A DNA stretch of 44,499 nt. It comes from Chromatiaceae bacterium. Lineage in GTDB: Bacteria; Pseudomonadota; Gammaproteobacteria; Chromatiales; Chromatiaceae. Under the pieces are notes generated by a model that did not search any database, was not told the origin of the DNA, and saw nothing but the letters and a program-made list of their open reading frames with translations. The stretch spans positions 1 through 44,499 of the forward strand of contig JACDZG010000056.1 in the NCBI GenBank assembly GCA_013426805.1, in the 5' to 3' direction. This document shows positions 8,282 through 37,115 of this stretch, one piece after another. The position numbers and the translations under genes are program-made. Within the stretch, counting starts at the first letter, position 1, and every line of letters starts with the position of its first letter.

Positions 8282-8442
8282 GGGCGTTGTCATCGTACCG
8301 GCCAGCGTCCGCCGAGGCTGGAGCGAAAATCTGATCCACCGGTGTCACAGATGAACACGGATGTTCTTCTTTATCTGTGAACATCTGTGACATCTGTGGA
8401 TCAATCCTGGGGATCGCTTTGGCCGGAACTGCGATCATGGCC
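8282..8442 (-). repeat. Dispersed MITE-like element A, overlapping the 3' end of lpxB
   Basis: About 160 bases bounded by inverted 22-base boxes: 8442-8421 read on the minus strand (18 of 22 to consensus) and the facing box at 8282-8303 on the plus strand (one-base gap). Inside is a core of ATCCACAGATG/TCACAGATG/TTCACAGAT units with an opposing TGTTCATCTGTG arm (8340-8401). Element B (31079-31254) shares both the boxes and this core, as well as the sequence between core and boxes. The lpxB stop codon (8401-8403) lies inside the element. Confidence 0.7.
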
Positions 8443-9606
8443 GCCGGCGGCGCTCCGCCCAATCAATTCGAGTACCGCCAGGGCCGCTTTGCGCGCCGCG
8501 TCGTGACGCAGTCCAGCGTGGATGCGGGTGTACTCGGCGGTAATCACGGAAACCCGCGCCGGGTCATTTAGAAAGTCCAGCAGCGCCGGCGCCATCAGGT
8601 CCGCCCGGCACCGATCCTGAAGAAACTCGGGCGCCAACTCGCGCCCCGCGAGCAGGTTGGCCATGGCCGCGTAGGGGACTTTCACCAGACGCAACTGCGT
8701 CACCAGATGATAGGTGAACGAATGGACCCGATAGCCGACCACCATCGGACGCTTGAGCAGGAGTGTCTCCAGGGTCGCGGTGCCGGAGGCCGTGAGCACA
8801 CAATTAGCAGCGGCGATGACGGCGCGCGAGCGCCCATCCACCAAGGTAACGGGCAGGTTGGGAGCCAGACGTTCAAGTACCGCGCTGAAATGTGCGCGCA
8901 GCCGTGCGTTGACCAAGGGCACCACGAAGCGCAACTCCGGCCGGGCATCCAGGCAACGCAGCGCGGTCTCGATAAAGGGCACCGCCAGACGCTCCACCTC
9001 GCCGCGCCGGCTGCCCGGCAGCACGGCGATCAGTGGCCCGGTCGCGGGCAGACCCAACTCCCGGCGGGCGGCTCCCTGGTCGACCTCCAGGGGAATCTGA
9101 TCGGCCAGCGGGTGGCCGACATAGCGGGCCGGCACCCCATGCGAACGCAGAAAGGCTTCCTCGAACGGAAAGACACAAAGCATCAGATCGACCGCGCGCC
9201 GGATGCCTTTCACCCGACCCGATCGCCAGGCCCAGACCGTTGGGCTCACGACATGGACGGTGCGAATTCCGGCCGCCCGCAGACGCCGTTCGAGACCCAG
9301 ATTGAAATCAGGCGCATCGACGCCGATGAAAACATCCGGCCGGTCTGTCAGGAAAAACCGCAGAAGTTGACGCCGCAGTCCGAGCAGTTCGCGCAAATGG
9401 CCGATCACTTCGATCAAGCCCATGACCGACAACCGCTCCATCGGGAACAGGGTCGCGCAGCCCGCGTCGAGCATTCGCGGACCGGCCACCCCGACGCAGC
9501 GAATCCCCGGCGCCAACCGCGCGAGTTCGGCAACCACGGCGGCACCGAGGATGTCTCCCGACACCTCGTTAGCGACGATGCCGACGCGCAGCGCGGGGGC
9601 GGTCAT
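8401..9606 (-). CDS. lpxB: Lipid-A-disaccharide synthase
   Basis: Transfers 2,3-diacylglucosamine-1-phosphate from its UDP donor to lipid X, making the lipid A disaccharide at the inner membrane. 401 residues with family landmarks: N-terminal VSGDILGA, FIGVDAPDFNLGLERRL, VSPTVWAWRSGRVKGI, YVGHPLAD, VLPGSRRGEVERL, ASGTATLETLL and VGYRVHSFTYHL. The usual AGE(A/T)SGD motif reads ANEVSGD here, a conservative departure. The start overlaps the lpxA stop (ATGA). The last 14 or so codons (SAAGGHDRSSGQSDPQD) lie in repeat element A, so the natural C-terminus has been replaced or extended. Confidence 0.95.
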   Translation of the reverse strand: MTAPALRVGIVANEVSGDILGAAVVAELARLAPGIRCVGVAGPRMLDAGCATLFPMERLSVMGLIEVIGHLRELLGLRRQLLRFFLTDRPDVFIGVDAPDFNLGLERRLRAAGIRTVHVVSPTVWAWRSGRVKGIRRAVDLMLCVFPFEEAFLRSHGVPARYVGHPLADQIPLEVDQGAARRELGLPATGPLIAVLPGSRRGEVERLAVPFIETALRCLDARPELRFVVPLVNARLRAHFSAVLERLAPNLPVTLVDGRSRAVIAAANCVLTASGTATLETLLLKRPMVVGYRVHSFTYHLVTQLRLVKVPYAAMANLLAGRELAPEFLQDRCRADLMAPALLDFLNDPARVSVITAEYTRIHAGLRHDAARKAALAVLELIGRSAAGGHDRSSGQSDPQD

Positions 9607-10376
9607 CAGCGCACGATGCTGCGGCTGCTATCCGCCACGAAGGCCGCCAGGGGCGCGATCTCGGGGGTGGTCTGCGCCAGTACCCGCAAACGCTCCAGGG
9701 CCTCATCCAGTTTGAGGCCACCCATGTAGAGTGCTCGATAGGCACGCTTGATCACGGTGATCGCCTCGGGCGTAAAGCCGCGGCGGCGCAAACCCTCGGC
9801 ATTGATCCCGTGGGGGGCCGCGGGCTGACCGGCGACAGTGACGTAAGGGGGGACATCCTTACTCAAGGCGGAACCCATGGCACAGAAACAATGAGCGCCA
9901 AGGCGGCAAAACTGGTGGACGATGGTAAAACCGCCAAGGATAGCCCAGTCCTGGATCTCGACATGCCCACCCAGGGAAGCGGCATTCGCCATGATTACAT
10001 GATCGCCGATCCGACAATCATGGGCTACATGGGTGTATGCCATGAACAGGTTGTCGTTCCCAATGCGGGTGACCCCCTGATCCTGAACGGTGCCGCGGTG
10101 CAGGGTGGCACACTCGCGAATCTGGTTGCGATCGCCGATCTCGAGCCGGGTCACCTCGCCGCCATACTTCATGTCCTGCGGGTCTTCCCCAACGGACGCG
10201 AACTGGAAGATCCGATTATCCCGCCCGATCCGCGTCGGACCACGAATGACCGCATGGGGCCCGATACGGGTACCGGCGCCAATCTCCACCCCTGGTCCGA
10301 TCACCGTGAACGGACCAACCTCCACCCCAGGCGCCAGCAGGGCGCCGGGATCAACGATGGCACTCGGGTGAATCAA
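9606..10376 (-). CDS. lpxA: Acyl-ACP--UDP-N-acetylglucosamine O-acyltransferase
   Basis: First step of lipid A synthesis, cytoplasmic. I place the start at TTG 10376, which overlaps the fabZ stop (TTGA) and gives the typical N-terminus (M)[11 protein letters not shown] and 256 residues; GTG at 10400 would add eight atypical residues. The N-terminal two thirds are a left-handed beta-helix of hexapeptide repeats. The catalytic base is His119 in [10 protein letters not shown], the equivalent of His125 in E. coli. [17 protein letters not shown] and the helical C-terminus (AEGLRRRGF) are standard. It lies between fabZ and lpxB, as in most gammaproteobacteria. Confidence 0.95.
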
Positions 10377-10900
10377 GCGGTGAAGTCCCGCGCGGTACAC
10401 ATGATTTCAGCCGAGGCAACGATCCGGTCATCCACGCGCGCCTCGCCGTCGAACTTCCAGATGCCGCGACGCACCGCCAATAACTTGACGGTCAGGAACA
10501 ACTGATCACCCGGCTCCACCGGGCGTTTGAACCGCGCCTTATCGATCCCGACGAAATAATACAGCGCTTTCTCGCCCACCTCTTCCGGGCGCGAGGCCAT
10601 GGCCAGCAAGCCGGTTGCCTGAGCCAGGGCCTCGATGATCAGCACCCCCGGCATCACCGGACGCACGGGAAAGTGCCCGACGAAATAGGGCTCGTTATAG
10701 GACACATTCTTGAGCGCGACCAGATAATCATCACGCTTGAAATCCACCACCCGATCGACCAGCAGAAAAGGATACCGATGCGGCAGCACGCTCAGCACCT
10801 TATGAATATCCATCGTGATCCGATCAGGGGTTATCACCGCGGGTTCCGCGCACCCGACCATTGGCCCCGCGTCCGTCAGATTAGGCTCAGATGCCTGCAT
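10373..10900 (-). CDS. fabZ: (3R)-hydroxyacyl-ACP dehydratase
   Basis: Hot-dog fold dehydratase of fatty-acid elongation; it competes with LpxA for beta-hydroxyacyl-ACP. The conserved region starts [22 protein letters not shown], and the active site is His in [14 protein letters not shown] plus Glu in [10 protein letters not shown]. With the start at 10900 the protein is 175 residues, about 29 longer at the N-terminus than usual. That start has a strong AGGAGG eight bases upstream and a TGATG overlap with lpxD, so it is likely used. The alternative ATG 10813 gives the standard 146-residue form with a weaker ribosome-binding site. Confidence 0.94.
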
Positions 10901-11955
10901 CAGTCTTCCTCCTGCCCGGGCGCGGCGCTCAACAGTGCCACGCGCGCTTCGAGTTGCTTAAGTCGGCGCGACAACTCATCAAGGTGTCTAAACCGCGCCA
11001 CGTTACGCCGCCATTCCGCGCTGGGCATGGCTGGTATTCCACTACTGTACGACCCCGCGTCCGGAAACGAGCGGGTGACCATCGCCTGACCGGAAAAGTG
11101 GACCTGATCGCCGATTACGAGATGTCCAGCCATGCCGACGGCCCCCGCGATCGTGCAGTTGCGTCCGATCAGGGTGGACCCGGAGATCCCGGTCATCGCC
11201 GCCATGGCGGTATGCTCGCCGACCTGCACGTTGTGACCGACCTGAATATGATTATCCAGCTTGACCCCGTCACTGATGCGGGTGTCACCGATGGCACCGC
11301 GGTCCACCGTGGTATTGGCGCCGATCTCCACATCGTCACCGAGTACCGCCCGCCCAACCTGCGGAATGCGCACCCACTGCTCCCCATCCTTGGCAAAGCC
11401 AAAGCCGGCACGGCCGATCACGGCTCCAGGATACAACAAGGCCCGCTTGCCGACGCGTGTTCCCTGACACAGGGTCACGCGTGCCACCAAACGGCTGTCG
11501 GCGTCGATCTCCACGCCCTCGCCGATGATACAGCCGGGTCCGATGAACACCCGCGGCCCGATCCGGGCTCCCGCTTCGATCACCGAGGTGGGCCCGATCC
11601 AGGCGCTGTCATCGATCCGGGCGGTCGGATCGACGACCGCGGACGGATGAACACCGCCAATCACCGGCGGCTCCGGGAAAAGCAATTGCGCGGCCCGCGC
11701 GAAACTCAAATAGGGATTGCGGCTGATCACGACGGGCACCGCGGCCGCATCGGCATCCGCTTCGCTCAGGATCACGACCCCGGCGCGGGTCGCCGCAAGA
11801 TGATGGCGATACTTCCGATCGCCCAGGAAACTGAGACAGTCGGACCCCGCGCTCACCAAATCAGCGACGCGCGACACACGGCTCCGCGGGTCGCCTCGAT
11901 AAGGTTCACCCAACCGACCCGCGAGATCTTCAAGAAGAATTCCATCTGCCGTCAC
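10900..11955 (-). CDS. lpxD: UDP-3-O-(3-hydroxyacyl)glucosamine N-acyltransferase
   Basis: Third enzyme of lipid A synthesis. Chosen start GTG 11955 (AGGAG eight bases upstream) gives 351 residues; GTG 11982 is possible. The N-terminal uridine-binding domain ([27 protein letters not shown]) is followed by a long hexapeptide beta-helix. The active-site region is [21 protein letters not shown], where the His in VGHN is catalytic, and a C-terminal helix ends in EARVALL. It sits between skp and fabZ in the standard cluster order. Confidence 0.94.
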
Positions 11956-11992
11956 GCCAGCATCTCCTGTCACGACACCCACTCGCTCCGGC

Positions 11993-12505
11993 TCACTTAT
12001 TGCCTGAATCCCGTTTCAGCCGCTCGATAACCAAGTCCGAGATATCCATGCGCGGGCTGTAGTAAACGAGACCCTCGGTAATCACCAGGTCGATCCCTTG
12101 TTCTTTGGCGAGTTCGACCACCACCTCGCGGACTTGCTTTGCCAGTTTGGTGCGCAACTCGTTCTGACGCAAGGCGACGTCTTCCTGAAACTCATCCTGG
12201 GCATACTTGAGCTTGCGCGTACGGCTGCGAATGTCGTTTTGCAGCCGCTGCATCTCGCTCTCGCTCATCAGTGCGGAATCGCGTTCGAGCTTGCGTTGCA
12301 GGATCGTGATCTGTTCCTGCTGTTGACGCAGATTGCGCTCACGCTCCTCAACCTCGACCTGCAGCGCCTTGCCGGCCGCCTCGTATTGCGGCGAGAGTTC
12401 TACCACCCGGTTAGGATCGACCACGCCGATCTTGTATGGATCGGCACCGACGCACGGCGCCGAAACCAGGGCCAGGATGATGACTCCGACTTGCGTGAGC
12501 TTCAC
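11993..12505 (-). CDS. skp: Periplasmic chaperone Skp/OmpH
   Basis: Holds unfolded outer-membrane proteins in the periplasm on their way to BamA. From GTG 12505 the protein has 170 residues with a signal peptide (LTQVGVIILALVSAPCVGA). The mature start KIGVVDPNRVVELSPQYEAAGK is typical. The centre (residues about 45-110) is the charged coiled-coil tentacle region (RERNLRQQQEQITILQRKL), and the C-terminus returns to the body with IDLVITEGLVYYSPRMDISD. It is 16 bases downstream of bamA, the usual partner. The frame is open upstream into bamA, but that part would precede the signal. Confidence 0.92.
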   Translation of the reverse strand: MKLTQVGVIILALVSAPCVGADPYKIGVVDPNRVVELSPQYEAAGKALQVEVEERERNLRQQQEQITILQRKLERDSALMSESEMQRLQNDIRSRTRKLKYAQDEFQEDVALRQNELRTKLAKQVREVVVELAKEQGIDLVITEGLVYYSPRMDISDLVIERLKRDSGNK

Positions 12506-12521
12506 GTTCGGTGCTCGGGAC

Positions 12522-14867
12522 TCAGAAGGTCTGACCAATACCGAACTGGAAGATCTGTGTCTCATCCTCCGGCTTCGAGTTCAGCGGCCAACCCATGCTG
12601 ATGGTCAAGGCTCCGACCGGCGATAACCAACTGGCTGCAATACCAGTTGAATAGCGTACTTCACTGAAGTTGAATCCGGTCGGTGCGACCAAGGGGGTGT
12701 CCTGAGTCACCCAGACGTTACCCACATCGAAAAACAACCCCATGCGCACCGTCTTCTCGATCTCTCCACCCAGTGGCGGAGCCGCCATCAGTTCGATACT
12801 TCCGACCATTTTGACATTACCGCCAACCGGGTCATCCGTCAGGAGCGTCTCGCGCGGACCCAGTGAATTGGCGACATAGCCACGCACCGAGCGGGGGCCT
12901 CCGGCGTAGTAATTTTCCCAGAACGGCAAGTAATTCAGGTCGCCATAGCCGTCGCCGTAACCCAGATCCGCGCTCAGGGAAAGGACGAAGCGGGACGTCA
13001 ACGGGATATAACTGTTGCCCTGATAGCCAATGCGGTAGTAGGTCAGATCACTGCCTGGTACAGCGACCTCGCCACGTACGGTCTGGATCGCCCCTTTCCT
13101 GGGGAAGACCGCCTTGTCGCGCGTGTCGTTGACATAGCTTGCGCTCAAAATGAAATCGTTGAATTCGGACCCGTTCTGCAGAACGAAATCCTGAGCCAAC
13201 AGGGAATAGCCGGCCATGAACTCGGTGTACTGATAACGCAGCGCCATACCGGCCCGACTGGTTGCCGAGATCGGCAGCCCGAAATTCATCCCGACGACAC
13301 CAACATTGGTCGCGTAATCGGCGCCGATCAAATTGCTGAAGTTCGTCTCGCGGTAAGACAACTCGAAGCCGCGGCTGATGCCATCGATCGTGTAGTACGG
13401 ATTCTGGTAACTGAACTGGTACAGCGTATTGGCGTCACTGGTGTTGAACGCCAGCGACACCCGTTTCCCGGTACCCAGGAAGTTGTTCTGATTGATGCTC
13501 GCATTGAATAGAACGCCCTGCGACTGCGAGTAGCCGATGCCCGCCATGAGATTGCCCGCGGGCTTCTCGCGAACCGTGAAATTGACATCGACCTGGTCCG
13601 CGGTGCCGGGCACCGGCGGCGTCTCGGTCGTCACATCGTCGAAATAACCAAGCCGATTCAGGCGTTCGCGCGACTCCTTGACTAAGGCCGCGGAAAACCA
13701 GGCACTCTCCAACTGACGAAGTTCGCGCCGCAACACCTCGTCACGGGTGCGGGTATTGCCCTTCATGTTGACGCGGCGAACATAGACGCGCTTACCCGGG
13801 TCCACGAAAAAGGTCACCACCACCTGCTTGGTCTCGTCATTGACCTCCGGTACCGGATTGACGTTGGCGAAGGCATAGCCCTCGTCGCCGAGCAAAGCGG
13901 AAATACGCTCGGCGCTCTCGGTGGTCAGTTTGCGCGAAAAGCTCTCGCCCCGCCGCAACTGGATCATCGGAAACACCTTCTCCACCGGGATCGCGGGCTC
14001 ACCGGCCAGCTTGATGTCGCTTACCGTGTATGAACTACCCTCGTCGACCACGACCGTGACATAAATCTCTTTCTTATCGGCACTGATCGAGACCTGCGTC
14101 GACTTGATGTCGAACTTGATATAACCCCGATCCAAGTAAAAGGAACGCAACCGCTCCAGATCGCCCGCAAGCTTTTGCTTCGAATACTGATCGTTCTTGG
14201 AATAAAACGAGTGCCAACCGGTGGCGCCGAGGTCGAATTGTTTGAGCAGTTTCTTGGTGTCGAACGCCTGGTTCCCGATGATATTGATCTGCTTGATACG
14301 CGCCGTGAGACCTTCGGTCACGTCAATACGAATGGCCACGCGATTACGTTCAAGCGGGGAAACTGTCGAGACGATCAGGACACCGTATTTGCCGCGTGAG
14401 AAATACTGGCGCTCCAGTTCCTGTTCGATGCGATCGAGCACCGAACGGTTAAAGACCCGACCCTCTTTCAAGCCGATCTCCTCGATGGCCTTACGCAGCG
14501 TCGCTTCATCGATATCCTTGTTTCCGACAAACTCGATCTGCGCGATCGCCGGACGCTCCTGAACGGTCAGCACCAACACGCTGCCGTCACGCTGCACGCG
14601 CACATCATCAAAGAACCCGGTCTGGTAAAGAGCGCGGATAATATTGGCGGTCACATCGTCCCCAACAGTATCACCGACCTGGACCGGGAGATAGTTGAAC
14701 ACCGTCCCTGGGGCAATTCGCTGCAGACCCTCGATCCGGATATCGGAGATCTGAAATTGATCCGCGGACACGATGCTGCCAAACAGGATCGCACATGTCA
14801 TCAGCAGGGCCACGAGAGGACGACGCCTGCCACCGTCGATGCCAGCAATTAGAACGCGCACAGGCAC
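12522..14867 (-). CDS. bamA: Outer-membrane protein assembly factor BamA
   Basis: Central component of the BAM complex, inserting beta-barrel proteins into the outer membrane. 781 residues from GTG 14867, which has GAGGGGA just upstream. A signal peptide (LVALLMTCAILFGSIVSA) is followed by five POTRA domains (first one FQISDIRIEGLQRIAPGTVFNYLPVQVGD). The C-terminal Omp85 barrel begins around residue 425 with AGIGYSQSQGVLFNASINQNN. GGPRSVRGY is the loop-6 VRGF/Y-type motif, and the protein ends in phenylalanine (FGIGQTF), the barrel-targeting signal. Neighbours rseP and skp are the usual ones. Confidence 0.97.
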   Translation of the reverse strand: MPVRVLIAGIDGGRRRPLVALLMTCAILFGSIVSADQFQISDIRIEGLQRIAPGTVFNYLPVQVGDTVGDDVTANIIRALYQTGFFDDVRVQRDGSVLVLTVQERPAIAQIEFVGNKDIDEATLRKAIEEIGLKEGRVFNRSVLDRIEQELERQYFSRGKYGVLIVSTVSPLERNRVAIRIDVTEGLTARIKQINIIGNQAFDTKKLLKQFDLGATGWHSFYSKNDQYSKQKLAGDLERLRSFYLDRGYIKFDIKSTQVSISADKKEIYVTVVVDEGSSYTVSDIKLAGEPAIPVEKVFPMIQLRRGESFSRKLTTESAERISALLGDEGYAFANVNPVPEVNDETKQVVVTFFVDPGKRVYVRRVNMKGNTRTRDEVLRRELRQLESAWFSAALVKESRERLNRLGYFDDVTTETPPVPGTADQVDVNFTVREKPAGNLMAGIGYSQSQGVLFNASINQNNFLGTGKRVSLAFNTSDANTLYQFSYQNPYYTIDGISRGFELSYRETNFSNLIGADYATNVGVVGMNFGLPISATSRAGMALRYQYTEFMAGYSLLAQDFVLQNGSEFNDFILSASYVNDTRDKAVFPRKGAIQTVRGEVAVPGSDLTYYRIGYQGNSYIPLTSRFVLSLSADLGYGDGYGDLNYLPFWENYYAGGPRSVRGYVANSLGPRETLLTDDPVGGNVKMVGSIELMAAPPLGGEIEKTVRMGLFFDVGNVWVTQDTPLVAPTGFNFSEVRYSTGIAASWLSPVGALTISMGWPLNSKPEDETQIFQFGIGQTF

Positions 14868-14941
14868 TTCCCCTCGATCAAGCCAGAGACCGTCGCGCGA
14901 GGCGGCGGCTAAAGGCAGGTAGTATAAGGGATCATCAGCGG

Positions 14942-16288
14942 CTAACCAAAGATCCGGGAGAGATCCAGATAAAACGCCAGGCCCATCAGGGCGGCCAGCA
15001 TGACGACCCCAAGCTTCTGGCCTTGCAACTGAGCAGCCTCGGAGAGCGGACTACCCTTGACCCACTCAATGGCGAAGTACAGCAGATGGCCCCCATCAAG
15101 GATCGGAATCGGCAACAAATTCAAGACGCCAAGACTGATGCTGACGACCGCCAGAAACTTCAGGAAAGAGTCGAATCCAATGGTTGCGGTCTGACCCGCG
15201 GCTTTGGCAATGGTGATGGGGCCGCTTAGATTCTCCAGCGAAGCCTGCCCAACCAGCATGCGTCCGATCACGCGCACGGTCAGGTAGCTCAGGTCTCCGG
15301 TCTTGACCAGGGCCGCGACCAAGGCCTCGACCGGACCATAGCGGACCTGAACGCGTTCGACCAAGACCTCGGCCCCGATGCGTCCGACCGTCGCGCCCTC
15401 CTTCTCGGCCGCGCGGGGGGTCAGTGCGATCGTGAGGGGTTCGCCGTCCCGCTCAATGGCAACCCGCAACGCCTGTCCTGGACTGGACTGCACCGTCTCG
15501 ACCCAGTGATCCCAATCCCGGATCGGTTCGCCGTCCGCACTGAGGATGCGATCACCGACCGCCAAACCGGCCTGCGCCGCCGGCTCGCCGCGGATCAGTT
15601 TGCCGATGATCGCGGCGAACCGGGGCTTTTGCGGATGCAGTCCGAGCCCTTCGAGAACACTGGTGTCCTCCGGCAGGGCCGCCAAGCGCCCCGCGTCGAT
15701 CCAGCGCTCCTGGTCACGTCCGGAGGCATCGCGCACCATCACGCGCAGGTCCTGGCCGCTGCGCTGCTCCACCATCAAAGCGAACACGACGCGCTCCCAG
15801 ATCGGCGCGTCACGGTCACCCACACGCACCAGGGCGTCCCCCTCCCGAAAGCCGGCTTGCGCCGCGATCGAATCCGGCTCGACCGACTCCACGACGGCAC
15901 GCAGCCCGGACTCGCCGGCCATGAACACGGCCCAGTAGGCGAGGATCGCAAACAGGAAGTTGAATAGGGGCCCGGCCGCGACAATGGCGAAGCGCTTCCA
16001 CAGGACCTGACGATTAAACGCCTGATCCACTTGGTGCACCGGGACCTCTTCCTCACGCTCATCGAGCATCTTGACGTAGCCGCCGAGGGGAATCGCGGCG
16101 AGCACATACTCGGTCGCGTCCGGGTGGCGCTGATAGCGCAGCAGTGAGCGTCCAAACCCGATGGAGAAACGCAGGACCTTGACCCCGACCAGGCGCGCGA
16201 CCCAGAAGTGACCAAGTTCGTGAACGCTGATGAGGATCGCCAGCGCGATGAGGAAATAGAGAATGTCGAGTGGGAGCGGCATGGACAT
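14942..16288 (-). CDS. rseP: Regulated intramembrane protease RseP
   Basis: Site-2 zinc metalloprotease that cleaves anti-sigma factors such as RseA during envelope stress. Start ATG 16288 gives 448 residues. The first membrane segment carries the zinc site (AILISVHELGHFWVARL, the HExxH). GGYVKMLDEREEEV follows, then two PDZ domains (about residues 115-290), and a C-terminal membrane segment with NLLPIPILDGGHLL, which supplies the third zinc ligand. It lies between dxr and bamA as in E. coli, so protease and barrel assembly are co-expressed. Confidence 0.95.
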   Translation of the reverse strand: MSMPLPLDILYFLIALAILISVHELGHFWVARLVGVKVLRFSIGFGRSLLRYQRHPDATEYVLAAIPLGGYVKMLDEREEEVPVHQVDQAFNRQVLWKRFAIVAAGPLFNFLFAILAYWAVFMAGESGLRAVVESVEPDSIAAQAGFREGDALVRVGDRDAPIWERVVFALMVEQRSGQDLRVMVRDASGRDQERWIDAGRLAALPEDTSVLEGLGLHPQKPRFAAIIGKLIRGEPAAQAGLAVGDRILSADGEPIRDWDHWVETVQSSPGQALRVAIERDGEPLTIALTPRAAEKEGATVGRIGAEVLVERVQVRYGPVEALVAALVKTGDLSYLTVRVIGRMLVGQASLENLSGPITIAKAAGQTATIGFDSFLKFLAVVSISLGVLNLLPIPILDGGHLLYFAIEWVKGSPLSEAAQLQGQKLGVVMLAALMGLAFYLDLSRIFG

Positions 16289-16298
16289 GGCGTACGCG

Positions 16299-17486: not shown

Positions 17487-18334
17487 GGGTGCACCCAGCC
17501 TAAGTATGAGATGCCAAGCGTGAACACGGGTGCTGCCGCGGTCAAGCTATCGATGCGGTCGAGCATACCCCCGTGTCCCGGGAGGAGTTGACCTGAGTCT
17601 TTCACGCCGCGACGGCGTTTGAGCAGGCTCTCGTAAAGATCGCCCACAATGGACATCGCCACCGTCATCGTACACAGTATAGCGCAAAACAGCATCTCCG
17701 CAATCCCGGCGGAGAACAGGAAACTCAAGAGGACACCGCTCAGACCGGCGCTCACCAGGGCGCCGTAAACACCCGCCAGGGTCTTGCCCGGACTCAACAC
17801 CGGGGCGAGCTTCGCGTGCCCCCAGCGCCGCCCCACGAAGTAAGCCGCCGAGTCCGCAATCCAGACCAGCAGGAACAGGAACAGCACGAGCAGCGGCCCG
17901 GCTGCCGCGCTGGTCCGCAATTCGACCAGCGCACCCCAGGGCGCACTCAGTACCAGCAACCCGGCCACCGCGGCAGCCACATCCGGACCCGGATACGGAG
18001 CGATCCGGCGCACCCGCGTCAGGACGATAACCTGGATCACCCACCAGCCAACACCGAGACCGATGATCCACGGACGCCAGTCCGGCACCAACCAGAGAAC
18101 ACCAATGATAACGCCCACCAGGACGAGATACCCACCGCGCGCCGCCGGTGCTGCGAGACCGACGAGCCCACTCCATTCCCAGGCGCCGACCAGGATGACC
18201 AACGAAAGAAAGACTGCAAATCCGGGCGCCGGAAGCCACACCACGGCGGCCATGACCGCGGGCCCCAGAATCAGCGCCGTCCAGGTTCGCTGACGCAGCG
18301 AACTGCCGCCGCGCAACAGACTAGCGCCAAGCAT
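17483..18334 (-). CDS. cdsA: Phosphatidate cytidylyltransferase
   Basis: Makes CDP-diacylglycerol from phosphatidate and CTP, the precursor of all phospholipids. The start is ATG 18334, overlapping the end of uppS by 14 bases, giving 283 residues with about eight membrane segments. The C-terminal signature is clear: [19 protein letters not shown] followed by [14 protein letters not shown], carrying the metal-binding aspartates. The frame extends nine codons upstream without a better start. Confidence 0.94.
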
Positions 18335-19109: not shown

Positions 19110-19141
19110 GTCTTCTTTGCTTCGGCTGCGCGTCGCGATCC

Positions 19142-19699: not shown

Positions 19700-19701
19700 A
19701 G

Positions 19702-21565: not shown

Positions 21566-21630
21566 GCCGCGGGCCGCATGTGATTTGCAGGGGCGCGGCA
21601 GAACCGGCGCCCCGTTCGATTGCTGACCGG

Positions 21631-26200: not shown

Positions 26201-26861
26201 ACCGCAGCACGCGCTGCCCCTGTCCATACCGCCCGCGCCTCGCGTCCACCAGCACCGCGCCCGGTACGGCATCGTCCTGACGATCCTGTTGGCAAACCCG
26301 TTCGCACAAGCGAACGAACCCCTACCCGCGGCCCCCTACCTGCACCTGCTCCCGCCCGCTCCCGCTGTTCCGATCGCCTTCGCGCAGGCCGGCGGCGGCG
26401 ATCCGTTGCCGGCCGCCACCCCCTGGCTCGATGAAGTGCGCACCCAGCGTCAGGCCGCGGAAGCCAGACGTCAGGCCAACCGCGAGTCATTCGAGGCCCG
26501 GCGCCGGGCCAATGACCCCTGGGGCGCGGCCCAACACGAGGCCTGGGAGGATGGCGTCCAACGACGCCGCGACGCGCGCAAACAGCGCATCGAGCAGGAC
26601 CGGGACTATTTTCGGGGTATGGGGCGGGTACCCCCTGATCCCTGGTCCGCGCCCTGGAACGATACGCCAACCGGCTCCCGGCACGAGTCGGCCACCACTG
26701 GGGCCCCGCCTTTGAGCGACCCATTCCGCACGGCCGCTCCCAATCGCGGGGCCGCGCCCCCTCCCCCCGGCCCCGCGGATGTGGACTCACCACCCCCGCC
26801 CGGCACCCAGATCTACGGACCCCAAGACTGGAACAACCTCTGGTATTTCCGCAGCTACTAG
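26187..26861 (+). CDS. Proline-rich exported protein of unknown function
   Basis: Placed from ATG 26187, which overlaps the glnD end by 14 bases; 224 residues. Residues about 24-45 (RYGIVLTILLANPFAQA) look like a signal peptide or anchor with a long N-region. A charged Arg/Glu/Ala-rich helix (about 80-140, likely coiled coil) and a proline-rich tail follow, ending in the aromatic QDWNNLWYFRSY. Low-complexity composition makes assignment unsafe, but the frame is long, follows glnD codon use and the ending looks like a conserved motif. No known function. Confidence 0.55.
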   Translation: MPNLEPQHALPLSIPPAPRVHQHRARYGIVLTILLANPFAQANEPLPAAPYLHLLPPAPAVPIAFAQAGGGDPLPAATPWLDEVRTQRQAAEARRQANRESFEARRRANDPWGAAQHEAWEDGVQRRRDARKQRIEQDRDYFRGMGRVPPDPWSAPWNDTPTGSRHESATTGAPPLSDPFRTAAPNRGAAPPPPGPADVDSPPPPGTQIYGPQDWNNLWYFRSY

Positions 26862-26876
26862 CAGCCTGTCGGACTT

Positions 26877-26895
26877 AGCCCCTGGGATGGGGGCT
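26877..26895 (+). repeat. Small hairpin after the proline-rich gene
   Basis: AGCCCC (26877-26882) pairs perfectly with GGGGCT (26890-26895) across a seven-base loop, 16 bases after the stop codon. No T run follows, so it is a weak terminator candidate at most. The preceding GCAGCCTGTCGGACTTAG resembles ends of repeats, but I see no second copy here. Confidence 0.3.
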
Positions 26896-26964
26896 CTAAG
26901 GAATGCAAACGATGCTCGAGCTGACCTCACCTTTGTTGCTTCTCGACTCACTGATGGAGAGTGC

Positions 26965-29253
26965 ATGATGTTGACACAACCAATGCGGCGACGCTGGTTC
27001 GCCGGGGCATTCGGCTTGGGCTTGGCTCTACCCCTGTCGCCAGGGCACGCCGATGCGCCGGATGCGCAGATGTCTCCGGACCGGGGCAGGGTCGTCGGGG
27101 TCGCAACCGCCGCAGCCCTGCGCGAATCGGCAGCAAGTGTCGTCGCCGACAATCCGTTCCTACGGCCGCTGCGGCACATAGCGGCTGAGGACTTTACCAG
27201 CATGGTCGTCGAGACCGACGGTCGCCTGTGGGCGTGGGGAGAGAATGATTGGGGCCAAGTCGGCGACGGCACCACCAGTGCTCGATCGAGTCCGCTACAG
27301 ATCATGACCGGGGTCGCCACCGTAGAGACCGGCTCCTACAGCACCCTGGCGGTCCAGTTCGACGGCACCCTCTGGGCCTGGGGGGCTAACTGGGATGGTC
27401 AACTCGGCGACGGGACCGACCAGGATCGCTATCGCCCGACCCGCATCATGACCGGAGTCGCCGCCGTGGCGGCTGGGAACAACCACAGCCTGGCCCTCAA
27501 GACCGACGGCAGTCTCTGGGCCTGGGGGTACAACGGACTGGGCCAGCTCGGCGACGGCACCAGAACGGATCGCTTGAGCCCAATCCAGATCATGACCGGG
27601 GTCGCCGCCGTGGCGGCTGGCGCAGCACACAGCGTGGCCCTCAAGACCGACGGCACCCTCTGGACCTGGGGGTATAACTGTTGTGGTCAACTCGGCGACG
27701 GCAGCCAATCGTGGGACGGTCGCCCCCCGACTCAGATCATGACCGGGGTCACCGCCGTTGCAACTGGTCTCTACGTCAACTTCGCCATCAAGACCGACGG
27801 GAGTCTGTGGGCGTGGGGAAAAAATGATGAGGGCCAGCTCGGCGATGGCACCACAATGATTCGCCGTCGCCCGGTCCGGGTCATGGCCCGCGGGGTCGCC
27901 GCCGTGGCGACTGGCGGGCGTGACGTGGATGGTGGTCATACCCTGGTCATCAAAACCGATCGCAGCTTGTGGGGCTGGGGGAATAATGCCCTTGGCCAAC
28001 TTGGCGACGGCACCACCACGAATCGATCGAGTCCGGTCCAAATCATGACCGGGATCGCTGCCGTGGCGTGCGGTGCATTTCACAACCTGGCCATCAAGAC
28101 GAACGGCCGTCTCTGGGCTTGGGGCATTAACTGGTATGGTGAGGACACCCAAACGATTCGCCTGAGTCCGGACCTCATGCGACCAGGCCTGCTGCCGGTC
28201 GCCTGGCTGCGCACCGACCGCGACATCAATGGCGACGGGGCGCCGGACCTCGCGCTATTCGCCGTTAACGAGAACAAGGCGATTGTCAAAAGCCATTCCG
28301 GCAACCCCATCAGCGAGGTCCCATTCGATCAAGCGCTCTCCCCGATCAGGTTCGATACCATCGACAACTTCGGCGGCACGCCCGCTCCCGAACTGGTCGT
28401 TTTGGGCCACGATGGTCAGGTGGAGATTCGGGATGGACGCTCGGGCGAGCGCCTCGCGGCTTGGGCCTTCAGCAGCGCGCCGCCGGTCGATCTGCAGATA
28501 CTCCCCGACCGCAATGGGAACGGCGTGCCGGAACTGGCGATGCTCGGTCGGACCCGACTGCCGGTTGAAGTACGCGACGGACGTGACGGCGACCTGATCG
28601 CCTCCGTGGCCTTCAACTCACTGCTCGAACCCAGAGACCTGTTGGTCATGGACGATCGTACCGGCGACGGCACCCCCGAACTGGGCTTGCTCGGCGAGCA
28701 CGATGACCCGAACCAGGCCGCCAGGATGCAGGTTCGCGACAGCGTGACCGACAGCGTGCACGGGCATCTGTGGCTGGGCAAAGGCTTCACGCCTCACCAG
28801 GCACGGGAACTGGACGACCGCAACGGCGACGGCAGTGCCGAAGTCGCGGTGCTGCGCTCCGCGGCCGATGGCAAGGTGGATCTCGTGGTGCAGGACCCAG
28901 TGAGCGGGCGGCTGTTGACCACCATCGGTTTCGGGCGCGATGTCCAACCGATCGCCCTGCTGAGCGTACCGGACATCAATGGCAACGGGGCGCCGGAGGT
29001 CGGGGTGCTGCTGCGCAACCCGACCAGCGGCGCACAATGGCTGGACCTCAAAGACAGCTCAACCAAGGCACTGCTGACCCGCCTGTGGCTGCCGATGACC
29101 TTTGAGATGAAAGGCGCCGAGGTGTTGCCGGACCTCAACGGCAACGGTGCCTCCGAAATCGCCGTGCTTGGTCAACGCGCACGTGAAAACAAACGCAACG
29201 TCTACATCCGGGACACGGCCACCGGGGAACTGCTCCAGAAGGTCGGCTTCTAG
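26965..29253 (+). CDS. Exported RCC1-repeat / FG-GAP-like repeat protein
   Basis: Start ATG 26965 (GGAG upstream) gives 762 residues; the frame continues upstream without a signal. A Sec signal (RRRWFAGAFGLGLALPLSPGHA) leads. Residues about 80-410 contain seven RCC1-type blades of 50-odd residues, each with a variant of KTDGSLWAWGxNxxGQLGDGT and IMTGVAAVAAG, which should close into a seven-bladed beta-propeller. Residues about 420-760 hold six or seven modules every 50 residues with DxNGxGxPE motifs (for example DRNGNGVPELAML, DINGNGAPEVGVL), calcium-binding FG-GAP/VCBS-like repeats. Probably a surface or periplasmic binding protein; ligand unknown. It is an insertion between glnD and dapC. 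Confidence 0.8.
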   Translation: MMLTQPMRRRWFAGAFGLGLALPLSPGHADAPDAQMSPDRGRVVGVATAAALRESAASVVADNPFLRPLRHIAAEDFTSMVVETDGRLWAWGENDWGQVGDGTTSARSSPLQIMTGVATVETGSYSTLAVQFDGTLWAWGANWDGQLGDGTDQDRYRPTRIMTGVAAVAAGNNHSLALKTDGSLWAWGYNGLGQLGDGTRTDRLSPIQIMTGVAAVAAGAAHSVALKTDGTLWTWGYNCCGQLGDGSQSWDGRPPTQIMTGVTAVATGLYVNFAIKTDGSLWAWGKNDEGQLGDGTTMIRRRPVRVMARGVAAVATGGRDVDGGHTLVIKTDRSLWGWGNNALGQLGDGTTTNRSSPVQIMTGIAAVACGAFHNLAIKTNGRLWAWGINWYGEDTQTIRLSPDLMRPGLLPVAWLRTDRDINGDGAPDLALFAVNENKAIVKSHSGNPISEVPFDQALSPIRFDTIDNFGGTPAPELVVLGHDGQVEIRDGRSGERLAAWAFSSAPPVDLQILPDRNGNGVPELAMLGRTRLPVEVRDGRDGDLIASVAFNSLLEPRDLLVMDDRTGDGTPELGLLGEHDDPNQAARMQVRDSVTDSVHGHLWLGKGFTPHQARELDDRNGDGSAEVAVLRSAADGKVDLVVQDPVSGRLLTTIGFGRDVQPIALLSVPDINGNGAPEVGVLLRNPTSGAQWLDLKDSSTKALLTRLWLPMTFEMKGAEVLPDLNGNGASEIAVLGQRARENKRNVYIRDTATGELLQKVGF

Positions 29254-29663
29254 CCGGCACCGGACCCCGCGCGGCGGCGCTCCGGGCCGTCGTGCACCTC
29301 CATGAACTCCAGCGCATTGCCGTCCGGATCGCGGCAAAACAGCGCCCGCCGACCGGAGCGGCTCATGGTCGATGGGACCCCGGCGGCCGCGAGCCGGGCC
29401 AGCAGGGGATCCAGGTCCGCGACCATCAGGGCGACGTGACGATCACGCCCGCCATGGGCGGGCCGCCCCGCGACCGGGTCGGGATTGGGCAGTTCAAGCA
29501 GATGAATTTGGCATCTGCCGACCTGGAGCCAGGCCCCTGGAAAGCCCAAATCCGGACGCGCCGGGTCGACACTGAGACCCAGCAGATCACGGTAGAAGGC
29601 CAATGAGCGGGCGGTGTCGGCGACCAGCAGACTGGCATGGTGCAGATCGAAGATGAGCGGCAT
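29250..29663 (-). CDS. VOC-family (glyoxalase/dioxygenase fold) protein
   Basis: 137 residues with the paired beta-alpha-beta-beta-beta modules of the vicinal oxygen chelate family: FDLHHASLLVADTARSLAFYRDLLGL at the start, IHLLELPNPD, DRHVALMVADLDPLLARL, and FCRDPDGNALEFMEV at the end. The likely metal ligands are His8 or His9, the Glu in LLELP, the His in DRHVAL and the Glu in ALEFME. Substrate cannot be told from sequence (related to glyoxalase I and small dioxygenases). Convergent with the RCC1 gene, overlapping by four bases. Confidence 0.85.
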   Translation of the reverse strand: MPLIFDLHHASLLVADTARSLAFYRDLLGLSVDPARPDLGFPGAWLQVGRCQIHLLELPNPDPVAGRPAHGGRDRHVALMVADLDPLLARLAAAGVPSTMSRSGRRALFCRDPDGNALEFMEVHDGPERRRAGSGAG

Positions 29664-29872
29664 CGGTCCTCCGCGGCATAGAGCCGGTATCAGGCTTGGC
29701 CTATACTAGCGCCTTTTCGTTGCACCGCAGTCGCCGCGTCCCGCGCCGCTGCGTCATGCGGACCGGTACCCACGTTGAAAAATCCTGCTGTTCTCGGCGT
29801 TATCGCGGTGTGGCGCAACCCTCAGGCGCGGCCATGCGCCATCACTGGCGACGCGCTGCCGGTGCCGGCCCC

Positions 29873-31069
29873 ATGAACCCCGGCATCGCCCAACTCCAAC
29901 CTTACCCGTTCGAGAAACTGACCGCGCTCAAGGCCGGTTGCGAACCGCCGCGCGCGCTGGAGCCGATCGCGCTCTACATCGGCGAGCCGCGTCACCCGAC
30001 GCCCTCGCTGATCACCGAGGCGCTGATCGCCCATCTGCATGGCCTGGCCGTCTACCCAAGCACGCGCGGCCTGCCGGCCCTGCGTCAGGCCATCGCAGAG
30101 TGGCTCACCGGACGCTTCGCGCTTCCCGCGGGGTCGCTGGACCCGGAGCGCCAGATTCTGCCGGTCAACGGCACCCGCGAGGCCCTGTTCGCCATCGCCC
30201 AGGCCGTGGTCGACCCCAGCCGCGCGCCCTTGGTGCTGATGCCCAACCCCTTCTATCAGATCTATGAGGGCGCGGCCCTGCTCGCGGGGGCGCAGCCGCA
30301 CTTCCTGCCCTGCCTGCCCGAGAACGGGTTTTTCCCGGACTTCGCGTCGGTGGACGCAGCCACCTGGGACCGCTGCCAGTTACTCTATCTGTGCTCCCCG
30401 GCCAACCCGAGCGGTGCCGTGCTCGATCTGGACAGCTTAAGCCGCCTGATCGACCTGGCCCAGACCCATGATTTCGTGATCGCCTCCGACGAGTGCTATG
30501 CGGAACTCTATCTGGACGAGTCGGCCCCGCCGCCGGGCCTGCTGCAGGCCGCGGCGACCATGGGCAATACGCAATTCACCGGCTGCATCTGCTTTCACAG
30601 TCTGTCGAAGCGTTCCAACGCACCGGGGCTGCGCTCCGGGTTCGTCGCCGGGGATGCGCGCTTGATCGAGCAGTTCTACGCCTACCGGACCTACCACGGC
30701 TGCGCCATGCCGCTGCCCACCCAACAGGCGAGTCTCGCCGCCTGGTCGGACGAGGCCCATGTGCGCGCCAACCGCGCGCTGTATCGCGAGAAGTTCGCCG
30801 CGGTCGTCGAGGTGCTGGCCCCGGTCCTGCCGGTCGAGACCCCGGCCGCCGGCTTTTATCTGTGGCCGCGGACGCCGATCCCGGACACCGACTTCGTACG
30901 CCGCTTGTTCGCCGAACAGCACGTCACGGTGCTGCCGGGGAGTTTCCTGTCCCGCGCGCGCGCCGGGCAGGATCCAGGAGCCAACCGGGTGCGCATCGCC
31001 CTGGTTCCGCCCCTGGATGAGTGCGTGGAGGCCGCCTGGCGGATCCGCCGCTTCGTCGAGGGACTGTGA
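29873..31069 (+). CDS. dapC: N-succinyldiaminopimelate aminotransferase
   Basis: PLP enzyme of the succinylase lysine/diaminopimelate route, forming N-succinyl-L,L-DAP. Start ATG 29873 gives 398 residues beginning MNPGIAQLQPYPFEKLTALK, typical of DapC; the open frame upstream to 29696 is not conserved-looking. Motifs: YPSTRGLPALRQAIAEWL, NPFYQIYEGAALLAGA, SPANPSGAVL, SDECYAELYLDE and the PLP lysine in SLSKRSNAPGLRSGF. dapD and dapE follow, so all succinylase-branch genes are together. Repeat element B starts nine bases after the stop. Confidence 0.93.
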   Translation: MNPGIAQLQPYPFEKLTALKAGCEPPRALEPIALYIGEPRHPTPSLITEALIAHLHGLAVYPSTRGLPALRQAIAEWLTGRFALPAGSLDPERQILPVNGTREALFAIAQAVVDPSRAPLVLMPNPFYQIYEGAALLAGAQPHFLPCLPENGFFPDFASVDAATWDRCQLLYLCSPANPSGAVLDLDSLSRLIDLAQTHDFVIASDECYAELYLDESAPPPGLLQAAATMGNTQFTGCICFHSLSKRSNAPGLRSGFVAGDARLIEQFYAYRTYHGCAMPLPTQQASLAAWSDEAHVRANRALYREKFAAVVEVLAPVLPVETPAAGFYLWPRTPIPDTDFVRRLFAEQHVTVLPGSFLSRARAGQDPGANRVRIALVPPLDECVEAAWRIRRFVEGL

Positions 31070-31078
31070 GGGGCCGGC

Positions 31079-31254
31079 GGCCTTGATCAGCGTTCCGGCC
31101 GCAGCGACTACTCGGATTTATCCACAGATGACACAGATGTTCACAGATGTTCACAGATGAAGAAAGACATCGGTAGCCATCTGTGTTCATCTGTGGATGA
31201 GATTTCCGCGCCGGAGCCTCGCCGGAAGTGCTGGCCGGAACGACGATTACGGCC
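31079..31254 (+). repeat. Dispersed MITE-like element B, between dapC and dapD
   Basis: 176 bases bounded by inverted 22-base boxes at 31079-31100 (21 of 22 to consensus) and 31233-31254 (19 of 22 as reverse complement). The interior carries ATCCACAGATG, ACACAGATG and two TTCACAGATG units and an opposing CATCTGTGTTCATCTGTGG arm (31119-31198). The sequence between core and boxes is also shared with element A near lpxB, in the same orientation relative to the preceding gene. Confidence 0.75.
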
Positions 31255-31328
31255 CTAAGAGCGGGACCCATCCTGTAAGATAATACCGCATCCATTTTGA
31301 TACGCTTATTCGATTTGCCGGAGCCACC

Positions 31329-32150
31329 ATGAGCGACACCCAATCCATCATCGTCGAGGCCTTTGAGCACCGCGCGGAGATCACCCCCCGCAATGTCGAG
31401 ACCCATGTCCGCGACGCCGTGCTGGAGGTCATCGGGCACCTGGACCGCGGCGCACTGCGGGTCGCCGAACCACGCGACGGGGGCTGGGTGGTCAACGAGT
31501 GGATCAAGAAGGCCGTGCTGCTGTCCTTTCGCATCGAGGACAACTGGTTCATCAAGGGCGGCTTCACCAACTATTACGACAAGGTGGCATCCAAGTATGC
31601 CGACATGAACTCGCGCGAGTTCCGCGAGACCGGCGTACGCGTGGTGCCGCCGGCCACCGCCCGCCGCGGCGCCTACATCGCCCCCTCCTGTGTGCTCATG
31701 CCCTCCTATGTCAACATCGGCGCCTATGTGGACACCGGCACCATGGTCGACACCTGGGCCACCGTCGGCTCCTGCGCCCAGATCGGCAAGAACGTGCACC
31801 TCTCGGGCGGCGTGGGGATCGGCGGCGTCCTGGAGCCGGTCCAGGCGGCACCGACCATCATCGAGGACAACTGCTTTATCGGTGCCCGCTCGGAGATCGT
31901 CGAGGGCGTCATCGTCGGTGCCGGCGCGGTGATCTCGATGGGGGTCTACATCGGCCAGAGCACCAAGATCTACAACCGCGAAACGGGTGAAATCCGCTAC
32001 GGACGCATCCCGCCGGGGTCCGTGGTCGTCCCCGGCAATCTGCCGGCCAAGGACGGCACCCACAGCCTCTACTGCGCCGTGATCATCAAGCAGGTGGATG
32101 AGCAGACACGCAGTAAGGTGGGCATCAATGAGCTATTGAGGGATATCTGA
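31329..32150 (+). CDS. dapD: Tetrahydrodipicolinate N-succinyltransferase
   Basis: Succinylates tetrahydrodipicolinate, committing it to the succinylase DAP route. 273 residues with a helical N-domain ([17 protein letters not shown]) and a hexapeptide-repeat beta-helix: [46 protein letters not shown] and [16 protein letters not shown], all diagnostic of trimeric DapD. GGAG eight bases before the ATG. A GATAAT-like -10 at 31279-31284 exists without a clear -35, so a private promoter downstream of element B is possible. Confidence 0.96.
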
Positions 32151-32177
32151 ATCGCCGGCCGCTCAAGGCGCGACAAC

Positions 32178-32522
32178 ATGATCACCCTCTACGGCATCAC
32201 CAACTGCGACACCATCAAGCGGGCACGCCGCTGGCTGGCACTGCATGGCGTCGACTACCGCTTCCATGACTATCGCAAGGATGGACTCACGCAGGCGCAG
32301 TTGCGCGCCTGGGCAGAAGAATTGGGCTGGGAGGCACTGCTCAATCGCCGCGGCACAACCTGGCGCACGCTGCCGGAGGCGGCGCGGGAGGGGATCGACC
32401 AGGAGTCCGCGATCCGCATCATGCTGGAGCACCCGTCCAGCATTCGCCGACCCCTGCTCGACACCGGGGAGACCCGCACGCTGGGGTTTTCCGAGTCCAC
32501 CTATACGGAGCTGCTGGGTTGA
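32178..32522 (+). CDS. yffB: ArsC/Spx-family protein YffB
   Basis: 114 residues with a thioredoxin-like ArsC fold: [20 protein letters not shown] has one N-terminal cysteine (Cys10), then [27 protein letters not shown] and the C-terminal [21 protein letters not shown]. It lacks the CxxC of Spx and the full cysteine set of arsenate reductases, as usual for YffB. The gene directly precedes dapE with a TGATG overlap, the same pairing as in E. coli and Pseudomonas. Its biochemical role is not established. Confidence 0.88.
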
Positions 32523-33655
32523 TGTCCGACACCCTCGACTTAGCCCGCGAACTGATCCGCCGGCCATCGGTGACCCCCGTCGACGCGGGTTGCCAGGATC
32601 TGATGGCCGAACGCCTGGCCGCGGTCGGCTTCCGCATCGAGCCCATGCCCTGCGGCGCGGTGACCAATCTATGGGCCCGCCGCGGCCAGTCCGGTCCGCT
32701 GTTCTGCTTCGCCGGCCACACCGATGTGGTCCCGCCCGGACCGCACGCTGACTGGGCCAGCGACCCCTTTGATCCGCAGATCCGCGACGGGATGCTCTAC
32801 GGCCGGGGGGCCGCCGACATGAAGGGCTCACTGGCCGCCATGGTCACCGCCGCCGAGCACTTCGTCGCCGCCCACCCGCACCATCCCGGCTCCATCGCCT
32901 TCCTGATCACCAGCGACGAGGAGGGCATCGCCACCGAGGGGACCGTCAAGGTCGTGGAAACCCTGGCGGCACGCGGCGAGCAGATCGACTATTGCCTGGT
33001 AGGCGAACCCTCCAGCCTGGAGCGGCTCGGCGACTGTCTCAAGGTCGGGCGCCGCGGCAGCCTGACCGGGCTCTTGACGGTGCACGGCAAACAGGGCCAT
33101 GTGGCCTATCCGCAGCGTGCCAACAACCCCTTCCACGCCTGTGTCAGCGCCCTCGCCGCCCTATGTGCCGAGGTCTGGGACCAGGGCAACGCGCACTTTC
33201 CCCCGACCAGCTTCCAGATCGCCAATCTGAACATGGGCACCGGAGCCGACAACGTGATCCCCGGCCGGCTCACCGCCCAGTTCAACCTGCGCTTCTCCAC
33301 CGAATTGACGGCCGAGCGGATCGAGACGCGGGTGCGCCGCCTGCTCGACGCCGGCGGCTTCCACTATGATCTGACCTGGCGCCTCTCGGGCAACCCCTTC
33401 CTCACTCCGGCCGGCGAACTGGTCGCCGCCACCGGCGCGGCGATCACCGCGGTGACCGGGATCGAAGCCCTGCCGTCCACCGCCGGCGGCACCTCCGACG
33501 GGCGTTTCATCGCCCCCACCGGCGCCCAGGTCGTGGAGTTCGGCCCGCGCAATGCCACCATCCATCAGGTGGACGAATGCGTCAGCGTCGCTGACCTGGA
33601 TCAATTGTCCATCATCTACCAGGGCATCCTCAAGCGCCTGCTGGGGCGGCCGTGA
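32522..33655 (+). CDS. dapE: Succinyl-diaminopimelate desuccinylase
   Basis: Di-zinc M20 hydrolase that releases L,L-DAP from its succinyl form. ATG 32522 overlaps the yffB stop (TGATG); 377 residues. Metal site: [11 protein letters not shown] (His-x-Asp), [11 protein letters not shown] (bridging Asp), [11 protein letters not shown] (Glu pair), and the late His in [22 protein letters not shown] is also characteristic. Together with dapC and dapD it completes the succinylase branch. The final codons and stop (GRP-stop) lie inside the left box of repeat element C. Confidence 0.95.
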
Positions 33656-33764
33656 TCATCGTTCCGGCCGGCACTGCGCGGTTGGAGTCCAAGGCTTCAG
33701 CCTTGGCCAGCCGATCCAAGGCTGAAGCCTTGGACTCCAGCCGTCCGGAGTCATGACCAAGGCC
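33648..33764 (+). repeat. Dispersed MITE-like element C with a 24-bp perfect palindrome
   Basis: 117 bases bounded by a 22-base box at 33648-33669 (21 of 22 to consensus) and a facing box at 33743-33764 (about 16 of 22 to the left one). The interior is a perfect inverted repeat: arms of 24 bases (33683-33706 and 33716-33739) with a nine-base loop. The arm includes AAGGCTTCAGCCTT, itself almost palindromic. The core differs completely from elements A and B although the boxes are the same. The dapE stop codon lies in the left box. Confidence 0.75.
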
Positions 33765-37108: not shown

Positions 37109-37115
37109 CTACAGG

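Follow-up and report, generated by a model that had tools for sequence, protein, structure and literature searches.

The 44,499-nt stretch of DNA analysed here (positions 1 to 44,499 of contig JACDZG010000056.1, Chromatiaceae bacterium assembly GCA_013426805.1; referred to below as the window) contains five copies of a 22-base box. These boxes are, in all likelihood, the terminal inverted repeats of a family of miniature inverted-repeat transposable elements (MITEs) that carry hairpins of the repetitive extragenic palindromic (REP) type as cargo and are transposed in trans by a partner insertion sequence coding for a DUF6399 protein. The hosts are purple sulfur bacteria of the Chromatiaceae, in the Thiodictyon/Lamprocystis genus group. 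Paired terminal repeats, a target duplication of constant length and an autonomous relative with the same ends, by which MITEs are recognised, were all found. A preliminary description of the window, made from the sequence alone, had proposed a non-autonomous transposon with conserved ends as one of two possibilities; the autonomous partner and an 8-bp duplication now bear this out.

Terminal boxes and the 8-bp target duplication

The five boxes (A to E; Table 1) were all present where they had been described. The box consensus, GGCCTTGATCATCGTTCCGGCC, was searched in the organism's own genome (7.6 Mb, 349 contigs) at up to three mismatches and gave 326 matches, against none for the reversed pattern, which is far above chance and agrees with the dispersed family described earlier. 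At the same threshold the window itself matched at four places and 100 shuffles of it at none; the right boxes of A and C and box E are weak matches. At up to two mismatches the box was found in 8/8 genomes searched of the genus (20 to 234 copies each) and, elsewhere in the family, in 5 of 26 (61, 8, 1, 1 and 1 copies); 21 genomes from other families had none. Used at 14 bits, a position-weight model built for the box matched 392 places, against 29 for the reversed model.

Paired elements were collected from a sample of 120 genome stretches and the window, which gave 81 pieces (2.05 Mb, 27% of the genome); the first 40 stretches were tiles of eight long contigs and the remainder were picked around boxes. 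An element was defined as two facing boxes paired by the position-weight model at no more than 300 bp, and the flanks were not used in calling. The sample yielded 94 paired elements, most commonly 130-139 bp long (35 of the 94), and among pairs 100-199 bp apart 81 faced inwards, against 5, 10 and 10 in the other three orientations. An exact 8-bp direct repeat was present at the outer edges of 20 of the 94 (0.27 expected from shuffled partners) and a repeat with up to two mismatches at 33 (1.3 expected). At the other duplication lengths between 4 and 12, no exact repeat was found at any of the 94 pairs. An 8-bp repeat is what transposition with a cut staggered by 8 bp leaves behind, and the earlier suggestion that the boxes are paired as in a transposable element is upheld by the 94 pairs and their 20 exact duplications.

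Contigs C15, C67, C152, C220 and C290 carry a box at position 32-53, the contig start being 31 bases inside a box-ended repeat; where visible, the repeat is an R1 MITE (see below) or the insertion sequence. Since contigs start inside box-ended repeats, these repeats fragment the assembly and the copy numbers are probably underestimated. Outward-facing, back-to-back boxes with exactly 6 bp between them were seen at C152:90537/90565, the C276 piece 13060/13088, C51:1953/1981 and C52:7844/7872. In the first 1.2 Mb, 4 of the 7 outward pairs with starts no more than 80 bp apart have this spacing (5, 12 or 20 bp in the rest), which possibly reflects insertion beside a pre-existing end.

An insertion sequence with the same ends

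Unpaired boxes leading into coding sequence were used to find the autonomous partner. A 1919-bp insertion sequence was located at C51:56-1974, with the ends GGCCTTGATCATAAATCCGGCC and GGCCTTGATCATCGTTCCGGCC and a main open reading frame (ORF) of 588 codons, and insertion sequences of 1.9 kb with these ends are present in the organism's own genome and in two others of the genus (G002, G007), so that the autonomous copy which the preliminary description proposed to look for has been found. The protein was matched in 7 of the 8 genus genomes, in some by fragments only. The complete genome of 'Candidatus Thiodictyon syntrophicum' (G007) holds 11 copies of 1916 bp that differ by at most 3 nt from one reference copy; an exact 8-bp duplication flanks nine of them, and one with 2 mismatches flanks another. 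At the insertion sequence's own ends the eleventh (L225) lacks a duplication; taking a MITE box 42 bp further on as the right end yields one that is exact, CTCGCCAC. The extra 42 bp are the right part of the MITE that hosts the insertion sequence copy L228, and this composite indicates that one end from the insertion sequence and one from a MITE travelled as a unit; other boxes can thus serve as ends. Further complete copies were found in Lamprocystis purpurea, with an exact duplication, and in Thiohalocapsa halophila, with one mismatch. A protein about 42% identical lies between the same ends in a metagenome-assembled genome of the Desulfobacteraceae (L216), and the relatives by name include Lamprocystis, Thiodictyon, Thiocapsa, Thiohalocapsa and Thiocystis. 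Given the shared ends and the same duplication length, the DUF6399 protein very probably moves the MITEs in trans.

The protein is about 577-588 amino acids (aa) long. The C-terminal part of the C51 protein corresponds to Pfam DUF6399 (E 8e-58) and its N-terminus gave weak helix-turn-helix matches; NCBIfam gave no match. Seven relatives were compared: neither PF01610 (ISL3) nor PF12762 (IS1595) matched any of them at E values up to 5, a range in which the HMMER filters drop most matches above 0.1, and a weak rve match (E 0.026) was obtained in one. D177, D251 and E504 are invariant in the alignment of the seven, and the protein may be of the DDE type with these residues as its putative triad. 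A search of solved structures returned three matches up to E 1, the best of them short and in the helix-turn-helix region (E 0.0017). Among 185 evenly drawn genomes of the class, the sole one with DUF6399 was the window's own. In viral contigs searched for distant relatives, 24 pattern matches were obtained and none was confirmed. The DUF6399 gene of Crinalium had no clear terminal repeats with a duplication, and the claim is therefore not extended to cyanobacteria. No literature on DUF6399 was found in the library searched, and on plasmid NZ_CP020371.1 of Ca. Thiodictyon syntrophicum the gene is annotated 'DUF6399 domain-containing protein'.

Insertion sequences of the ISL3 and IS1595 families have ends that begin with GG and make 8-bp duplications. 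The present insertion sequence is like them in both respects and unlike them in its protein, which matches neither Pfam family; it is set apart from them by Pfam and may already be catalogued in ISfinder. Members of the two families were also tried as partners and rejected: none of their matches in the own genome (4 and 2, respectively) ends in a box pair, and a small box pair lies beside one ISL3 fragment.

Some two-box units enclose other genes. At C52:25616-26868, R4-type boxes flanked by an exact 8-bp duplication lie 1253 bp apart and enclose an IS200-type transposase gene. Two units of 1.2 kb, C294:4121-5319 (L159) and C329:535-1795 (L164), contain an ORF that we take, from its N-terminus, to code for an Rpn-type nuclease; the target duplication is 7/8 in one and absent in the other. 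Two units of about 0.5 kb, L140:9511-10021 (contig C161) and L150:1328-1844 (contig C246), have outer flanks that are alike and no duplication, and their ORF presumably codes for a Toll/interleukin-receptor domain.

Hairpin cores and REP sequences

The cores of the 94 elements were assigned to R1 (31), R2 (13), R3 (11), R4 (6), R6 (5) and R5 (3), with 5 mixed and 20 unclassed. Exact duplications were distributed as R1 13/31, R2 2/13, R3 3/11, R4 1/6 and unclassed 1/20, the unclassed element being a further GTAG hairpin dimer at C55. A tag begins the hairpin (GTAG in R1, R5, R6, R7 and R8; GGAG in R3 and R4) and a palindrome comes next, which, judged from the sequence, is the form of REP sequences. 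Tagged hairpins were found in 55/94 elements; in 1000 random segments matched for length, most of them coding, they were found in 41. Frames without a core, 53-61 bp long, make up 6/94 elements; they look like collapsed cores and not like empty precursors, because those at C268 and C48 keep, by eye, R4- and R6-type subterminal sequence.

REP sequences, and the paired REPINs, are associated with RAYT transposases, and as far as the sources describe them (PMC3116915, PMC3733652) they are GTAG- or GGAG-tagged palindromes, often in inverted pairs, as here. The likeness extends to the flanking of RAYT genes within the same genus. In the own genome (G000), the R1 hairpin flanks a gene for a 193-aa RAYT (NF047646, E 4e-51; locus L050); among the 30 RAYT loci returned, R1 flanks three (in G001, G002 and G007), R6-like hairpins with 1-2 mismatches in 18 flank two (in G002 and G006), and most have no hairpin like a MITE core. 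Flanking was seen for the R1 and R6-like cores and was established for none of R3, R4 and R5. It could be supposed that box and hairpin are a REP/REPIN derivative moved by RAYT alone, with passive boxes. The REP-type cores and the RAYT-family matches in all 8 genus genomes (above the curated cut-off in 7 of them) speak for this, as do the R1 copies with a single box in the 2.05 Mb (e.g. window 37047-37120), of which 11/32 end between -2 and +8 nt from the first tag and a further 11/32 between +33 and +47, close to where the second REP ends (figures given with no chance expectation). Such truncation at REP edges may be due to RAYT cutting or to hairpin deletion. The exact 8-bp duplications, on the other hand, flank the boxes and not the REPs, the R2 elements, which are not REPs, and the 1.9-kb insertion sequence share the ends and the duplications, and R1 is also found without boxes. 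Movement by RAYT alone is already contradicted by this evidence and is given next to no probability. The pairs here also differ from REP/REPIN systems in lying inside another transposon's terminal repeats with an 8-bp duplication, and in that the R1 pairs of these MITEs have their tags inside.

At C256:21211-23342 (L092), an R3 element stands between two RAYT-like genes (74-75 bits against a curated cut-off of 80), the second of which has a C-terminal helix-turn-helix. The 5' ends of group II introns were seen inside R1 hairpins at L151:9654-9902, C98:2650 (-) and L050 ~2053; the intron motif was found at two places, L151 was confirmed by Rfam RF02005, and the third was recognised by eye at a contig end.

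Exchange of cores was counted per box view, with frames defined by their subterminal sequence. R3 frames contain an R3 core in 23/23 views (one with others added), R6 frames an R6 core in 5/5, and R2 frames none of the listed REPs in 12/12. R4 frames are a mosaic, 13 of their 30 views showing additional or different REP families; inspection by eye showed that, among these 13, C282 and C238 are R3 elements and C203 sees a neighbouring element, and C239 and C330 are counted from both boxes. The exchangeable cores of the preliminary description thus hold in part, in one mosaic frame (R4) and one composite transposition, and not for most frames. The REP hairpins within the frames are best read as cargo. 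No literature on the box or the REP sequences was found in the library searched.

A number of results weigh against the interpretation put forward here. Weak boxes include chance matches (819 for the real model against 212 for the reversed one at 8 bits), and all sampled contigs were known from box hits, which biases copy density upward. Three or more duplication mismatches were counted at 61/94 pairs. Among the complete insertion sequences, the own-genome copy at C51 has no 8-bp duplication at its ends, the own-genome copy C306 (L242) has 5 mismatches, L210, L211, L215 and L216 have 7, 7, 8 and 6, L244 has 5, and a 66%-identical type in G007, present three times (L236-L238), has 6, 3 and 6; L236, L237 and L244 show a 7-base match when shifted by one base. 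G005, of the same genus, contains 148 boxes at up to two mismatches and no match to the DUF6399 protein, so that either copies can persist after the loss of their source or the draft simply misses the gene. The protein has no confident match to a known transposase domain; the DDE triad is read from only 7 aligned sequences, and the AlphaFold model is poor (mean pLDDT 58.7, catalytic region mostly <50). The R2 core (CACAGATG, 13/94) has no tag and is not a REP, and most frames keep one core family, contrary to free exchange.

Placement, copies in the window and significance

All five window boxes lie at gene 3' ends, as had been described. In the gene calls made for this analysis, coding sequence extends 8 bases into C and 42 into A, and D, B and E follow the stop at 8, 9 and 23 bases. 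Their common direction relative to the gene also holds, and it follows from the inward-facing ends: the outer end nearest a gene always reads alike. Placement was examined over the sample, with genes from the same simple caller (1507 genes, 79% coding); 21 of the 94 paired elements lie at stretch ends and could not be placed. Only 2 of the 73 placed paired elements are in genes, against 80% of random sites.

The preliminary description had offered targeting of stop codons, and a transposon that actively seeks stop codons or gene 3' ends would account for the five window boxes and for a general lean: between same-strand genes 63/89 copies are nearer the stop (p = 5e-5; 24/36 paired elements and 39/53 single boxes), distances of 0-30 nt make up 36/173 on the stop side and 8/163 on the start side, and overlaps with gene ends number 23 at 3' ends and 5 at 5' ends. 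Against it, 18/73 placed paired elements lie between divergent genes, about the number that random intergenic sites would give (17.9 of 71); over all three kinds of region (tandem, divergent, convergent), paired elements do not differ from such random sites (p 0.23; unpaired boxes p 0.04). Young copies, defined by no more than one duplication mismatch (19 placed of 26), are 5 convergent, 7 tandem and 7 divergent, 4/7 of the tandem ones are nearer the stop, and 2/17 stop-side distances are within 30 nt; they have no clear 3' lean, and the small sample leaves room for a weak preference. The insertion sequence copy L226 of G007 appears, by eye, to interrupt an open frame, and the bias fits purging of harmful insertions. 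Stop-codon targeting is hence considered unlikely, and the pattern would be accounted for if insertions were removed from genes and promoters. Read forward, the box has a stop codon in one frame and none in the other two, so that insertion near the end of a gene may be tolerated.

The other possibility offered was a modular 3'-end processing element. An RNA element maintained by selection because it terminates transcription or processes mRNA 3' ends would be in keeping with the hairpin cores and the lean towards 3' ends, although the placement as analysed above lends it no support, and it is opposed by the 8-bp duplications, the autonomous partner and the copies between divergent genes. The window elements gave no match at gathering score in an Rfam scan, and at sites A, B and C relatives have no element or different repeats. 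This explanation is rated as less probable still than stop targeting; later use as an RNA element at single sites is possible.

The coordinates of the elements are given in Table 1. The facing inverted copies reported for A, B and C are inward-facing pairs, as had been noted. At none of the three pairs is there an 8-bp duplication (8, 6 and 6 mismatches of 8), which marks the three as old; mobility could not have been demonstrated from the window by itself. The 9-bp palindrome reported in D is in fact part of a larger, GTAG-tagged hairpin. E is one half of an element of the most frequent core class, and its likeness to a full R1 element stops 8 nt past the tag.

Table 1. Boxes, paired elements and hairpins of the MITE family in the window (mismatches are to the genome consensus of the box)
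Feature	Position	Strand	Remarks
Tagged hairpin of the D remnant	1893..1915	-	GTAG TCAGGCCA..TGGCCTGA; core family R5 in an R4-type frame; direct reading
Box D	1957..1978	-	terminal repeat of an incomplete copy; 2 mismatches
Element A	8282..8442	-	161 bp; CACAGATG core (R2); repeats 8421-8442 (-, 4 mismatches) and 8282-8303 (+, 5 mismatches)
Element B	31079..31254	+	176 bp; CACAGATG core (R2); repeats 31079-31100 (+, 1 mismatch) and 31233-31254 (-, 3 mismatches)
Element C	33648..33764	+	117 bp; repeats 33648-33669 (+, 1 mismatch) and 33743-33764 (-, 5 mismatches)
Core of C	33684..33738	.	two GGAG-tagged hairpins facing each other (R3)
Box E	37047..37068	+	R1-class end type (GGCCTTGGTCATAAACCCGGCC); 5 mismatches
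R1 hairpin of E	37092..37112	-	GGTCCGCACAGCGGACCCTAC; tag GTAG

The lpxB frame runs into element A, where its last codons and stop are found. The M20 peptidase gene (32522-33655) has its TGA stop inside the left box of C; a relative (L288) has no element at this site and a TAA where the box now supplies the TGA. At the same site L. purpurea (L284), like the window, has an element with two hairpins, and the orthologous copy of an uncultured Lamprocystis (L285) has one; among the relatives compared, those more distant yielded no recognisable copy. The two nearest relatives carry other repeat units at sites A and B in place of the R2 elements. These comparisons point to rapid turnover at the intergenic spots A, B and C, whether by exchange within elements or by independent insertions. 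Elsewhere in the window, t44 RNA (RF00127; 22401-22500, -) is the sole Rfam match at gathering score, and a 1582-aa protein (37406-42154, +) has six PA14-domain stretches, Ig-like/cadherin-like domains and DUF1800.

In the mechanism proposed, the DUF6399 transposase made from the 1.9-kb insertion sequence would move the MITEs in trans and 8 bp would be duplicated at each insertion. Other facing boxes would serve as ends, and the DNA between them, often REP-type tagged hairpins, sometimes the transposase gene and perhaps a passenger gene, would become mobile. REP families with RAYT transposases of their own would in this manner ride a second, unrelated vehicle. Selection would purge copies in genes and leave intergenic ones, often just past stops, where a box can supply a new stop codon, as is seen at one site (C).

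MITEs as such are a known kind, and the bacterial ones named in the source consulted include NEMIS, RUP, ERIC and Nezha (PMC3733652). The present elements are like them in being short, with two terminal inverted repeats, a target duplication, no transposase and an autonomous relative that shares the ends; they are unlike them in that one family of ends encloses several unrelated hairpin families, many of the REP type, and in that the partner protein carries only a domain of unknown function. REP dimers regularly inside conserved inverted-repeat sequence are also known, having been described in 2013 from three other species (A. variabilis GTAG-15, T. roseum GTAG-23 and H. neapolitanus CGTC-1; PMC3733652); in the parts of that description consulted, each palindrome has one REP family, and neither a duplication nor an autonomous partner is mentioned. 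A MITE of Porphyromonas gingivalis, as far as its source describes it, likewise has repetitive DNA as its interior, a minisatellite (PMC4596501); that core is a tandem repeat, whereas REP hairpins of several families are found here.

It is considered about an even chance that DUF6399 proteins are the transposases of an unrecognised insertion sequence family with permissive use of ends, which serves as a vehicle for other selfish DNA and forms a two-tier mobile system with the RAYT-served REPs riding in it. If so, REPs would gain a second route of spreading and the MITE would gain new bodies. A transposase function is proposed for Pfam DUF6399, a domain left unnamed in the plasmid annotation, and a large dispersed repeat family of lake purple sulfur bacteria would be explained. 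The near-identical copies would offer a natural system for the mutual capture of REP hairpins and classical transposons.

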